Part shown: one piece after another, positions 19,901 through 23,797 of the stretch | Layout of the letters: the number at the start of each line of letters is the position of its first letter | Numbering within the stretch: position 1 is the stretch's first letter | Assembly: GCF_020520285.1 (NCBI RefSeq) | Contig: NZ_CP084742.1 | Span: 5,567,501-5,631,500, forward strand | Direction of reading: 5' to 3' | DNA length: 64,000 bases | Origin: Pseudomonas sp. L5B5 | Lineage (GTDB): Bacteria; Pseudomonadota; Gammaproteobacteria; Pseudomonadales; Pseudomonadaceae | Notes under the pieces: generated by a model | Told to the model about the DNA's origin: nothing | Database searches by the model: none | Seen by the model: only the letters and a program-made list of their open reading frames with translations | Program-made: the position numbers and the translations under genes

Positions 19901-20047
19901 GATCAGCAGCAACAGCCAGAACAGGCGCCAGAAATACCGACGGGGCTTGGGACGTTCAGGCAAAGGCGTTTCGTCGTCGCTGTGGCGTGGCACTGCGGTA
20001 TTGCGTGAGTCGGTGTGCCACAAAGCGCCCATAGTCGATTGATCCAT
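16925..20047 (-). CDS. Large class A penicillin-binding protein-like transglycosylase/transpeptidase
   Basis: A 1040-residue bitopic inner-membrane protein. A cytoplasmic Pro/Arg-rich N-terminus is followed by one membrane segment near residues 40-60, a GT51 glycosyltransferase domain (LLFIENRDLLD; AGGSTLATQLEKYRHSP; RDYLNSVPLSAVPG), and a transpeptidase domain with GSTAK (active-site Ser), an SSGD element where SxN is expected, and GGKTGTGDN (KTG). The GT motifs diverge from standard PBP1a/1b (EDRxF, GGSTITQQ), and the protein is longer than those, so it is a distinct subclass rather than PBP1A, 1B or 1C. The start may be 20047 or 20032; neither has a clear ribosome site. Confidence 0.82.
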   Translation of the reverse strand: MDQSTMGALWHTDSRNTAVPRHSDDETPLPERPKPRRYFWRLFWLLLLIALVALGVAASREMRTSKLQAREFSSLARNLDYSLQPGASDAMVYPGAGPFDRRLGYSALGEFLPRLLKRGYLIESQVRFSAALMDYSENGFFVPYAEKIQAGLSITDCRAAALYQFKYPQQFYPHFASIPPLVVHSLLFIENRDLLDPRLAQANPAVDWPRFAKAAWSQVARLLHLPGQSAGGSTLATQLEKYRHSPDGLTVSGGEKLRQMVSASVRAYQDGPQTLEARKRIVRDYLNSVPLSAVPGHGEVHGMAEGLRVWYGADFDKVNQVLGGTAMDSRSLAERGLALRQVLSLMIAQRRPSHYLAKGRAELADLTDSHIRLLAQNNVIDPALSAAALASQATYRDWQQQPTIQPIETNKGISVARSRLAALLNRPLYDLDRLDLSATSTLQSDLQRQATEYLKHLADPAFAAQVGLLGERLLTPTSTTQVRYSFTLFELTPDGSRVRVQTDSTDQPFDINEGSKLELGSTAKLRVLTTYLQIIAELHDKYAGQTPAQLKTIPVNDQDRLSRWSIDYLMQNGDRNLPKMLDAALDRTYSASPGEAFFTGGGLHHFHNFRNEDNGRSPTLRDALRESINLPFIRLMRDLVRYSTYGGDSSSAELLKDDDNPRRQEYLARFADREGTSFLLRFWKKYRNKDTQSRLETFLDSMHPTAIRLSAVHRYLLPDASQESFNRFVRAHMKNAKVSEKLTDERLDKLYASYGPGAYDLPDQGYIAKVHPLDLWLLGYLMNNPEASFSQVVKASEFERQEVYSWLFKSRHRSARDSRIRTMLEIEAFLDIHQRWQAVGYPFDHLVPSLATAIGSSGDRPAALAELVGTILNDGVRLPTLRIDSLHFAAGTPYETRLLNDPDKGKRVMPSQVATALRGALSQVVDAGTAKRVSGSFKLADGTPLAMGGKTGTGDNRIEAIGAGGRVLSSKSINRTATFVFYIGDHHFGTLTAYVPGASAQAFKFTSALPVQVLKGMAPILMPYLQPGSATQCQGNLAQR

Positions 20048-20134
20048 TCACGCAGATTGATCGGACTTGTCTGAAGCTTAGTCGGTGGTGGCGAGCGGTG
20101 AGGAAATTGTGAAAACAGACGCTGCCTTGCTTCT

Positions 20135-20265
20135 GTGGCGAGGGAGCTTGCTCCCGTCCGGCGGCGCAGCAGCCGCAACACCTGAGCACGCGTTCTGTCA
20201 GGGAGATCACGCAAGCCGATTTCAGGGCCGCTGCGCGGCCCAGCGGGAGCAAGCTCCCTCGCCAC
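20135..20265. repeat. REP doublet 1
   Basis: Left arm GTGGCGAGGGAGCTTGCTCC and right arm GGGAGCAAGCTCCCTCGCCA are inverted; each contains its own hairpin GGGAGC-TT-GCTCCC or equivalent. Variant GGCGGCGCAGCAGCC follows the left arm where the other copies have GGCTGCG. The sequence to its left is not repeat-like. Confidence 0.9.
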
Positions 20266-20395
20266 ATGATGGGTTAATTGCCTTCGGGCTAGGCGAGTGA
20301 GTGCTGGACGCTAGCATTTTTGCTCCCGGGCTGAAGTCCACGATGGTTTGCAGGTATTTCAGCGTTGCTGCGGGTTGTGGCAAGGAAGCTTGTTT

Positions 20396-20526
20396 GTGGC
20401 GAGGGAGCTTGCTCCCGTCCGGCTGCGCAGCAGCCGCAAGACCTGAGCATGCGTTCTGTCAGGGAGATCACGCAAGCCGACTTCAGGGCCGCTGCGCGGC
20501 CCAGCGGGAGCAAGCTCCCTCGCCAC
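20396..20526. repeat. REP doublet 2
   Basis: Same architecture as doublet 1. It borders the RAYT gene on its 3' side; 11 bp of linker (ending GGGTTA) separate it from the RAYT insert. Confidence 0.9.
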
Positions 20527-20534
20527 ATGATGGG

Positions 20535-20996
20535 TTACTGGAGCCAGCAAGCATCCCACAGTGGGTAGTCGCCAATGCGTTGCGCCAGGCCCGCACGCAA
20601 GGGATTGGCGACTATGTAGCGAGCAAGGGGCTGAATGTCTTCGCCATCGCGGATTGCTCTGTCGTGATAGCCGCTTTGCCAGAGGGCACCGCACAGCCCC
20701 AGGTGTTGATTGAGCTGGCGGGTGCTGCGCGATTTCACCCTTTGCATCACCTCGGGCAATGTTGCCGTGCGCAGTTGGAGCAGCCAATGCAGGTGGTCCG
20801 GCATCAGGACCCAGGCCAGTGAGTCGGCAAGCCCCAGGTCCTGAACCTGTCTCAGTTCAGTGACCACCAGCCGCCCCAGGCGCCAATCGGAGAATAACGG
20901 TTGGCGTTGATGAACCACGGTGGTGATGAGGTAGGCGCGTCCGCTTTCGGAATGGCGGCCGCGGCGCAAGCGATGGGATCTTGGACGAGATGGCAT
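20535..20996 (-). CDS. REP-associated tyrosine transposase (RAYT)
   Basis: A 153-residue Y1-type HUH nuclease-like protein. It shows the HUH motif in MPDHLHWLLQ and a downstream Tyr in WQSGYHDRAIRD, plus the RAYT-like ends (GRAYLITTVVHQRQPLF; RYIVANPLRAGLAQ). RAYTs bind and cut REP hairpins in single-stranded DNA. GAAGG lies upstream of the ATG at a normal distance but belongs to the flanking repeat, and the stop codon TAA is also in flanking repeat (TTA at 20535-20537). The gene therefore fills the linker of one unit exactly. All motifs look intact, so it may be active. Confidence 0.9.
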   Translation of the reverse strand: MPSRPRSHRLRRGRHSESGRAYLITTVVHQRQPLFSDWRLGRLVVTELRQVQDLGLADSLAWVLMPDHLHWLLQLRTATLPEVMQRVKSRSTRQLNQHLGLCGALWQSGYHDRAIRDGEDIQPLARYIVANPLRAGLAQRIGDYPLWDACWLQ

Positions 20997-21118
20997 TCCA
21001 TTGCCTTCGGGCTAGGCGAGTGAGTGCTGGACGCTAGCATTTTTGCTCCCGGGCTGAAGCCCACGATGGTTTGCAGGTATTTCAGCGTTGCTGCGGGTTG
21101 TGGCGAGGAAGATTGTTT

Positions 21119-21249
21119 GTGGCGAGGGAGCTTGCTCCCGTCCGGCTGCGCAGCAGCCGCAACACCTGAGCACGCGTTCTGTCAGGGAGGTCACGCAAGC
21201 CGATTTCAGGGCCGCTGCGCGGCCCAGCGGGAGCAAGCTCCCTCGCCAC
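21119..21249. repeat. REP doublet 3
   Basis: Same architecture as doublet 1, on the 5' side of the RAYT gene. The stretch before it reads GTGGCGAGGAAGATTG where other linkers have GTGGCAAGGAAGCTTG. Confidence 0.9.
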
Positions 21250-21379
21250 ATGATGGGTTAATTGCCTTCGGGCTAGGCGAGTGAGTGCTGGACGCTAGCA
21301 TTTTTGCTCCCGGGCTGACGCCCACGATGGTTTGCAGGTATTTCAGCGTTGCTGCGGGTTGTGGCAAGGAAGCTTGTTT

Positions 21380-21510
21380 GTGGCGAGGGAGCTTGCTCCC
21401 GTCCGGCTGCGTAGCAGCCGCAAGCCCTGAGCACGCGTTCTGTCAGGGAGATCACGCAAGCCGATTTCAGGGCCGCTGCGCGGCCCAACGGGAGCAAGCT
21501 CCCTCGCCAC
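21380..21510. repeat. REP doublet 4
   Basis: Same architecture; shares the variants GTAGCAGCCGCAAGCCC with doublet 5, indicating recent tandem duplication of these two. The right arm reads GCCCAACGGGAGC, a point change from the others. Confidence 0.9.
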
Positions 21511-21640
21511 AAGATGGGTTAATTGCCTTCGGGCTAGGCGAGTGAGTGCTGGACGCTAGCATTTTTGCTCCCGGGCTGAAGTCCACGATGGTTTGCAGGT
21601 ATTTCAGCGCTGCTGCGGGTTGTGGCAAGGAAGCTTGTTT

Positions 21641-21771
21641 GTGGCGAGGGAGCTTGCTCCCGTCCGGCTGCGTAGCAGCCGCAAGCCCTGAGCACGCGTT
21701 CTGTCAAGGAGATCACGCAAGCCGATTTCAGGGCCGCTGCGCGGCCCAGCGGGAGCAAGCTCCCTCGCCAC
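21641..21771. repeat. REP doublet 5
   Basis: Same architecture; near-identical to doublet 4, with a TCAAGGAG change in the spacer. Confidence 0.9.
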
Positions 21772-21901
21772 ATGATGGGTTAATTGCCTTCGGGCTAAGC
21801 GAGTGAGTGCTGGACGCTAGCATTTTTGCTCCCGGGCTGAAGTCCACGATGGTTTGCAGGTATTTCAGCGCTGCTGCGGGTTGTGGCAAGGAAGCTTGTT
21901 T

Positions 21902-22032
21902 GTGGCGAGGGAGCTTGCTCCCGTCCGGCTGCGCAGCAGCCGCAAGACCGGAGCACGCGTTCTGTCAGGGAGGTCACGCAAGCCGACTTCAGGGCCGCTG
22001 CGCCGACCGGGGGGAGCAAGCTCCTTCACCAC
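21902..22032. repeat. REP doublet 6, decayed right arm
   Basis: The left arm is intact, but the right arm has several changes (GCGCCGACCGGGGGGAGCAAG then CTCCTTCACCAC in place of CTCCCTCGCCAC). It marks the terminal, diverged end of the array. Confidence 0.85.
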
Positions 22033-22353
22033 AGAACAGCGACTTTTCCCAGGTAAATACGCCCTAGGTAGGGGCATGACGAGGCATCGGGGCTGTGCAA
22101 TACTCGCGACCCTTTCCGAGTGGGGTCTGGTGGAAAAAGCAGGGAATGCTTCTCCGTGAAAGCGGTTTTTGCCGAGATTTATCTCTGAATTTAGCTGTTT
22201 ATAGAGTGAAAAGCCCTGTAGTGAGCTTTTTATACTGCGTACCCCGCTGATCTGGCAGGTTTTGTCCTACAGGCGCACCGTCCCACAAGGTCGGTCCGGT
22301 CGAGCAGGCTGCGGTTATCCGCCGCTGCCTGGAAGACTCGGTGGTTCATATCC

Positions 22354-22361
22354 AATAACAA
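22354..22361 (+). promoter_or_regulatory. CA motif (Hfq/Crc target) before the permease
   Basis: AATAACAA fits the AAnAANAA pattern bound by Hfq with Crc in pseudomonads and lies immediately before the TGAGG ribosome site of the permease. It predicts carbon catabolite repression of translation. The gene-free stretch 22033-22378 otherwise contains a possible -10 (TATACT near 22231) and a long leader, with nothing else I can identify. Confidence 0.55.
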
Positions 22362-22378
22362 AATGAGGTTGTATCTCT

Positions 22379-23797
22379 ATGCCAGTTGGCAACCAACTGC
22401 CCCACGGCGAAACCGCTCAGGGCGGCCCGCTGAAACGCGAACTCGGCGAACGGCATATTCGCTTGATGGCCCTTGGCGCCTGTATCGGTGTCGGCCTGTT
22501 CCTCGGCTCGGCCAAGGCGATCGAAATGGCCGGTCCGGCCATCATGCTGTCCTACATCATCGGCGGCCTGGCGATCCTGGTGATCATGCGCGCCCTCGGT
22601 GAAATGGCGGTGCATAACCCTGTCGCCGGCTCCTTCAGCCGCTACGCACAAGACTACCTGGGCCCGTTGGCGGGCTTTCTCACCGGCTGGAACTACTGGT
22701 TCCTGTGGCTGGTGACCTGCGTCGCGGAAATCACCGCCGTAGCGGTGTACATGGGCATCTGGTTCCCCGATGTACCGCGCTGGATCTGGGCCCTGGCGGC
22801 CCTGGTGAGCATGGGCTCGATCAACCTGATCGCGGTGAAGGCCTTCGGCGAGTTCGAGTTCTGGTTCGCCCTGATCAAGATCGTCACCATCATCGCCATG
22901 GTCATCGGCGGTGTCGGCATCATTGCCTTCGGTTTCGGCAACGACGGCGTGGCCCTGGGCATTTCCAACCTCTGGACCCACGGCGGCTTCATGCCCAATG
23001 GCGTGACCGGCGTGCTGATGTCCCTGCAGATGGTGATGTTCGCGTACCTGGGCGTGGAGATGATCGGCCTGACCGCCGGTGAAGCGCGCAACCCGCAAAA
23101 GACCATTCCCAACGCCATCGGCTCGGTGTTCTGGCGCATCCTGCTGTTCTACGTGGGCGCGCTGTTCGTGATCCTGTCGATCTACCCGTGGAACGAAATC
23201 GGCACCCAGGGCAGCCCCTTCGTGATGACCTTCGAACGCCTGGGGATCAAGACCGCAGCCGGCATCATCAACTTCGTGGTGATCACCGCGGCCCTGTCGT
23301 CCTGCAACGGCGGGATCTTCAGCACCGGTCGCATGCTCTACAGCCTGGCGCAGAACGGCCAGGCCCCAGCCAGCTTCGCCAAGACTTCCGAAAGCGGGGT
23401 GCCACGCCGCGCCTTGCTGCTGTCGATCTTCGCCCTGCTGCTGGGTGTACTGCTCAACTACCTGGTGCCGGAAAAGGTGTTCGTCTGGGTGACGTCCATC
23501 GCGACCTTCGGTGCGATCTGGACCTGGGTGATGATCCTCCTGGCCCAGCTCAAGTTCCGCAAGGGCCTGAGCCCGGCCGAGCGTGCCGCCCTGAAGTACC
23601 GCATGTGGCTGTACCCGGTCAGTTCCTACCTGGCGCTGGCGTTCCTGGTGCTGGTGGTGGGACTGATGGCCTACTTCCCGGAGACTCGTGTGGCGCTGTA
23701 TGTCGGCCCCGCGTTCCTGGTGCTGCTGACGGCCTTGTTCTACATGCTCAACCTGCATCCGACCAATAGCCATGAGGCGGCGACCCGCTCGTCCTGA
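22379..23797 (+). CDS. proY: Amino-acid permease of the APC family, ProY-like
   Basis: A 472-residue inner-membrane transporter with 12 hydrophobic segments. The N-terminus (RHIRLMALGACIGVGLFLGSA, MAGPAIMLSYIIGG, MRALGEMAVHNPVAGSFSRYA) is the amino-acid permease signature and is closest in my recollection to E. coli ProY; histidine permease HutT is a related alternative. TGAGG precedes the ATG. No catabolic genes are adjacent to fix the substrate. It is monocistronic, ending in a strong bidirectional terminator. Confidence 0.85.
   Translation: MPVGNQLPHGETAQGGPLKRELGERHIRLMALGACIGVGLFLGSAKAIEMAGPAIMLSYIIGGLAILVIMRALGEMAVHNPVAGSFSRYAQDYLGPLAGFLTGWNYWFLWLVTCVAEITAVAVYMGIWFPDVPRWIWALAALVSMGSINLIAVKAFGEFEFWFALIKIVTIIAMVIGGVGIIAFGFGNDGVALGISNLWTHGGFMPNGVTGVLMSLQMVMFAYLGVEMIGLTAGEARNPQKTIPNAIGSVFWRILLFYVGALFVILSIYPWNEIGTQGSPFVMTFERLGIKTAAGIINFVVITAALSSCNGGIFSTGRMLYSLAQNGQAPASFAKTSESGVPRRALLLSIFALLLGVLLNYLVPEKVFVWVTSIATFGAIWTWVMILLAQLKFRKGLSPAERAALKYRMWLYPVSSYLALAFLVLVVGLMAYFPETRVALYVGPAFLVLLTALFYMLNLHPTNSHEAATRSS

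Follow-up and report, generated by a model that had tools for sequence, protein, structure and literature searches.

Tandem clusters of REPINs (inverted pairs of REP sequences) are known from Pseudomonas fluorescens SBW25. According to extracts of Bertels and Rainey (2011, PMC3116915), the repeats there include flanking sequence, and some clusters lie beside RAYTs, the REP-associated tyrosine transposases. RAYTs at syntenic positions have been reported in fluorescent pseudomonads (extracts of PMC3390384 and PMC3686654). Tandem REPINs can also be lost, and an extract of PMC8049555 describes an E. coli mutation-accumulation line in which five of six disappeared.

Here we analysed a window of 64,000 nucleotides from the chromosome of Pseudomonas sp. 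L5B5, in which a RAYT lies within one unit of a REPIN array. The REPIN-RAYT locus itself, with its local amplification, is ordinary. It is unusual only in that the amplified units have cleanly lost the coding sequence.

Array layout and the RAYT gene

The array covers window positions 20135-22033. It consists of six 132-bp REPINs and their spacers, forming four 261-bp units and one 723-bp unit, and ends in a lone 132-bp REPIN. Units start at 20135, 20396, 21119, 21380, 21641 and 21902, with spacings of 261, 723, 261, 261 and 261 bp. As in other tandem REPIN clusters, near-identical REPINs follow each other head to tail with common flanks. The features, as delimited by unit alignment, are:

20135-20266, no strand: REPIN 1, two inverted REPs of the GTGGCGAGGGAGCTTGCTCCC class, downstream of the RAYT
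20267-20395, no strand: empty spacer 1, RAYT 3' flank with TAA fused to the RAYT 5' leader (minus-strand reading)
20396-20527, no strand: REPIN 2, opens the occupied 723-bp unit
20528-20537, minus: RAYT 3' flank including the stop codon TAA (20535-20537), kept in the empty units
20535-20996, minus: RAYT, 153 aa, intact frame (NF047646, E 9e-45; PF01797, E 4e-9)
20538-20999, minus: 462-bp segment absent from the four empty units (153 sense codons and GGA)
21000-21118, minus: RAYT 5' leader of the occupied unit, with GAAGG at 21004-21008 and, at 21034-21037, a CTAG motif recurrent in RAYT leaders
21119-21250, no strand: REPIN 3
21251-21379, no strand: empty spacer 2
21380-21511, no strand: REPIN 4
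21512-21640, no strand: empty spacer 3
21641-21772, no strand: REPIN 5
21773-21901, no strand: empty spacer 4
21902-22033, no strand: REPIN 6, terminal, right REP more diverged

With 462 bp set aside, the five complete units can be told apart, as they matched at 251-257 of 261 positions. The occupied unit without 20538-20999 is 261 bp long and matched the other four at 251-254 of 261. The unit sizes and the 462-bp difference given in the preliminary description thus agree with the unit alignment. Its term "REP tandem array" held for the tandem repetition and not for single REPs, as each unit is a REPIN plus RAYT leader. The assembly is a single 6.81-Mb contig, and the copy number is the one in that assembly.

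Exact copies of the REP numbered 71 genome-wide, 11 of them inside the array, and the reversed control gave 0. REPINs lie on both sides of the RAYT, which is thereby flanked by a REP class repeated across the genome. Four further tandem REP arrays (L262-L265) were seen in this genome, at 1.546, 3.028, 4.305 and 6.753 Mb, with unit periods of about 176, 146, 153 and 174 bp.

The RAYT scored 152 bits against NF047646 (cut-off 80) and 37 bits against PF01797 (cut-off 23) in profile searches. Its translation contains HLH in LMPDHLHWL and a Y in QSGYHDRA, which we take to be the HUH motif and the downstream tyrosine. It is the sole copy of its kind; the genome's two further RAYTs share 54-56% identity with it.

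The linker of the empty units is the RAYT's own 3' flank with the stop codon, followed by the RAYT 5' leader. On the plus strand the 3' flank with the stop codon reads TGATGGGTTA, and AGATGGGTTA in one unit. A genome search placed the leader at five positions, all within the array; this confinement indicates that the unit spread locally and not by transposition. Among 397 other congeners, with two candidates scored per genome, leader copies were limited to three weak partial matches of 34-40 bp, and the plasmid search found none. In the leaders at this site the CTAG motif lies about 36-55 bases before the RAYT start (39 of 52 leaders; 21034-21037 in the window). The distal leader end carries a 19-bp REP-like partial duplication (about 1.9 copies; 20375-20411, with equivalents at 21359, 21620 and 21881), which is absent from the leader of L012, a relative introduced below.

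The 462-bp insert (20538-20999) comprises 459 nt of sense codons (20538-20996) and GGA (20997-20999, minus strand), so the segment extends 3 bp beyond the coding sequence on the 5' side. With a slash marking the junction, the occupied unit reads TTA/CTGG and TTCC/ATTG, and all four empty units read TTA/ATTG. The empty junctions are identical, show no microhomology, and zero bases are common to both ends. GAAGG (21004-21008, minus strand) and TAA (20535-20537, minus strand) both lie in sequence common to the five units. On each of these points, namely the composition of the insert, the exact junctions and the supply of a Shine-Dalgarno sequence and a stop codon by the repeat, the preliminary description was correct.

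The same site in related genomes

To the left of the array lies a gene for a protein of 1040 aa whose PBP1-type match is weak and falls below the curated cut-off; an amino-acid permease gene lies to the right. The intergenic region between these neighbours is called here the PBP-permease site. The RAYT and the empty leaders point left, as does the PBP gene.

We compared 82 loci: 80 congener stretches, L012 and the window. Both flanks were present in 73. L164, L234, L244, L253, L254, L255, L257, L259 and L261 were omitted for one or both missing flanks, and a RAYT was nonetheless present in L234, L254, L255 and L261. A full-length RAYT occupied the PBP-permease site in 51 of the 73 loci, window included, a fraction that is not a prevalence, as loci were picked by flank or RAYT match. 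Of the remaining 22 loci, 20 yielded no full-length copy and L224 has a disrupted RAYT. In L249 the RAYT lies outside the usual region, beyond the PBP gene, where REPs flank it.

L012 (Pseudomonas sp. Au-Pse12) is the nearest named RAYT-bearing match, with a RAYT of 88% amino acid identity. There, the same two neighbours enclose a single REPIN-leader-RAYT-REPIN and no tandem array. Its two directly repeated REPINs differ at 7 of 132 positions, counted on the alignment. The linker of an empty unit of the window was 78% identical over 116 bp to the L012 RAYT leader.

RAYT and PBP divergence were correlated across 49 loci (Spearman 0.54; 0 of 999 permutations as high). Together with the 51 occupied loci of 73, this indicates that the occupied state is old. 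The seven closest loci by flank (L152-L158, 82-95% identity) were all without a RAYT, so several independent losses or locus exchange between lineages must be assumed. L153, L154 and L157 had a single REPIN-like pair and no RAYT, as expected from recombination between REPINs; L152 had neither.

A relic scan of the 73 loci found a RAYT 3'-end in L230, in a spacer between two REPINs and still reading GDYPLW. This relic represents a separate, imprecise loss. A second match in L230 was rejected, being the start of the intact gene of that locus. L224 was not counted as a relic either; its disrupted RAYT consists of two fragments in different frames.

Other arrangements were also seen at the PBP-permease site. 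L222 carries two diverged tandem RAYTs, each between REPINs, with 64% and 68% identity to the query, so they do not represent a recent duplication of the window gene. The RAYT was inverted in L182, L186, L230, L256 and L258. REPINs flank it on either side in four of these loci, and L186 has only REP-like words of looser match. Inversion between inverted REPs could have produced this orientation.

Origin of the empty units

We read the array as an old REPIN-RAYT locus with local tandem duplication and deletion, in which the empty units are derived, and assign this reading a probability of roughly 0.77. The start would have been a single leader-RAYT between two directly repeated REPINs, as in L012. 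Recombination between these REPINs, or replication misalignment, would have duplicated the REPIN-leader-RAYT unit. One copy would then have lost its coding sequence in a single illegitimate deletion that began 3 bp ahead of the start codon and ended immediately short of the stop codon. The 261-bp REPIN-leader unit so formed would have been amplified, and further unequal exchange may have moved empty units to the left and right of the remaining full unit.

Of the two origins proposed in the preliminary description, the one in which a REP-RAYT-REP ancestor lost the coding sequence and was then amplified is supported by the single-copy L012 locus and by the 51 occupied loci. Two spacer columns, 115 and 122, jointly set the empty units apart from the occupied one, and at column 115 the base of the empty units also deviates from the REP consensus. 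With the identical empty joints, these common differences are most simply accounted for by one loss that then spread among the units. No intermediate with two recent full units was found among the loci compared, a set that included no same-species strain.

The loss is exceptional among the loci scanned. Two scans for leader copies covered RAYT matches with at least 60 bp upstream: 132 loci for copies of at least 40 bp, and 66 matches for copies of at least 25 bp. The scan loci are partly redundant, many being duplicates of one gene, and the distinct RAYT genes number 137. Near-full leaders without a coding sequence were found in these scans only in the window, which recurred as WIN, L122 and L192. 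L082, L087 and L149 had copies of the distal 48-58 bp of the leader only, taken to be REP sequence. The comparison of occupied and empty units in relatives, recommended earlier as a check, thus revealed exact loss at no other scanned locus, and the L230 relic is imprecise.

How surprising are the endpoints? Both lie within 3 nt of the coding sequence, for which p is ~0.0003 in a rough, post hoc model that places endpoints uniformly between the REPINs. If the whole coding sequence is lost and the REPINs are kept, the same model gives p ~0.01. RAYT losses with a residue number only two (window and L230), so this improbability is not diluted by many trials. Chance endpoints can account for the exact loss. 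We consider the exact endpoints probably a matter of chance among possible deletions and not the product of an excision enzyme.

The array could instead have been selected for its multiplied RAYT leaders, each offering a candidate promoter and ribosome-binding site toward the PBP gene and thereby altering PBP expression or titrating a RAYT regulator. The CTAG motif, possibly part of a promoter -10, precedes the start in 39 of the site's 52 RAYT leaders, against a background of 0.0016 per base, and all empty units have kept it together with the ribosome-binding sequence. The common leftward reading of the RAYT, the empty leaders and the PBP gene also fits. However, relatedness among the 52 leaders means that this enrichment does not count as independent evidence, and a consensus scan detected no sigma-70-like promoter in 19950-22400. 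A terminator scan of the array region was empty. We regard selection for leaders as unlikely, and any effect of the empty units on expression would be speculation from sequence features.

IS200/IS605 elements excise with a seamless joint and without target-site duplication. In the same donor-joint style, the RAYT or a related Y1 enzyme might have cleaved single-stranded DNA at the two ends of the coding sequence and then sealed the flanks, with the leader and REPINs left in place. The joint in the empty units is likewise seamless and free of a target-site duplication. A dyad, GGCA-ATGGAA-TGCC (20992-21005), overlaps the RAYT start codon, and its centre is 1 bp away from the 5' endpoint. At least four consecutive pairs of this dyad were present in 63 of 137 distinct RAYT genes, against 0-5 for the other 20 centres tried; this count involves related genes and a simple rule for choosing start codons. 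When the insert strand was folded to minimum energy, a small predicted hairpin of its own enclosed each junction (GGCA with TGCC at the 5' end, TTGCTG with CAGTAA at the 3' end). The fold of the whole insert strand had a z of -2.5, with 2 of 100 shuffles as good, a score that does not separately rate the junction hairpins against chance.

The published cleavage chemistry of REP enzymes argues against such an excision. REP enzymes cleave between C and T, and in one system a guide change to GTGG shifted this to C and C or C and A (extract of PMC8266576). The junction bonds in the window are A-C and C-A on the plus strand, and T-G and G-T on the minus strand. Only one of the four fits published cleavage, the C-A bond between 20999 and 21000 on the plus strand, and neither strand combines two bonds with known cleavage dinucleotides, as IS200/IS605-type excision would. 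The 5' junction is 119 bp from the nearest complete REPIN, and the 3' junction 10 bp from a REPIN. The same loss occurred at no other scanned RAYT locus (137 distinct genes). Co-variation within the dyad was weak: in the 109 genes whose start is preceded by GGA, one of seven pairs exceeded its shuffles; the invariant start-codon columns are uninformative in this respect. A literature search for RAYT together with start codon gave only unrelated papers among the matches listed. Overall, enzymatic excision seems quite improbable. Its generalisation is very doubtful: the single-strand chemistry of RAYTs, guided by the conserved start-codon dyad, would precisely cut out their own genes between the leader and the stop codon, and the non-coding REPIN-leader units left behind would amplify as promoter-bearing arrays.

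The second origin proposed earlier, in which an existing REPIN-linker array seamlessly gained the RAYT coding sequence in one unit, is very unlikely: empty units do outnumber the occupied one, the junctions are scar-free and the flank-closest loci (L152-L158) have no RAYT, but the linker is the leader of a RAYT in the array-less L012, the site is occupied in 51 of 73 chosen loci, and the linker was found nowhere else in the genome and only as the three weak 34-40 bp matches in the 397 congeners (two candidates scored per genome).

With the empty units read as derived, one chromosomal site presents a series of states: a RAYT with two REPINs, one REPIN and no RAYT, a RAYT relic between REPINs, and RAYT-less leader units. 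The series illustrates both growth and shrinkage of a domesticated transposase locus. An enzymatic origin of the exact loss would be direct evidence of a RAYT acting on its own gene; a chance deletion would be a tidy case of ordinary repeat turnover.

Comparison with known systems

Tandem arrays were present at 8 of the 73 PBP-permease loci, window included. In the other seven (L183, L187, L188, L191, L229, L237 and L258) the array lay beside the RAYT and not around it, with periods of 122-273 bp (345 bp being a double period). The preliminary description had called neither of its two origins usual for RAYTs. Arrays beside RAYTs are not unusual, given these seven loci and the clusters in the extracts of PMC3116915; clean loss of the coding sequence is, having been seen at no other scanned locus.

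RAYT-less leader units were not found described in the open-licence literature, as far as its extracts extend. Three described systems come closest. In SBW25, near-identical tandem REPINs with flanks form a cluster beside each of three RAYTs; the extracts of PMC3116915 contain no unit with a RAYT leader-stop codon flank and no RAYT inside an array unit. The arrays around E. coli yafM, termed bacterial interspersed mosaic elements (BIMEs; Nunvar et al. 2010, PMC2817692), resemble the window in having regular REP arrays on both sides of a RAYT, but the extract describes them as REP units and not as RAYT leader units. The syntenic RAYT orthogroups (Nunvar et al. 2013, PMC3686654; Loper et al. 2012, PMC3390384) share with the window a REP-flanked RAYT, a common chromosomal position and RAYT loss. 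In the extracts of these two papers loss is inferred as absence or pseudogenisation, whereas the window keeps coding-less derivatives beside an intact copy. The novelty is therefore modest: tandem REPIN arrays beside RAYTs and RAYT loss were already known, and what the window adds is the clean loss of the coding sequence.
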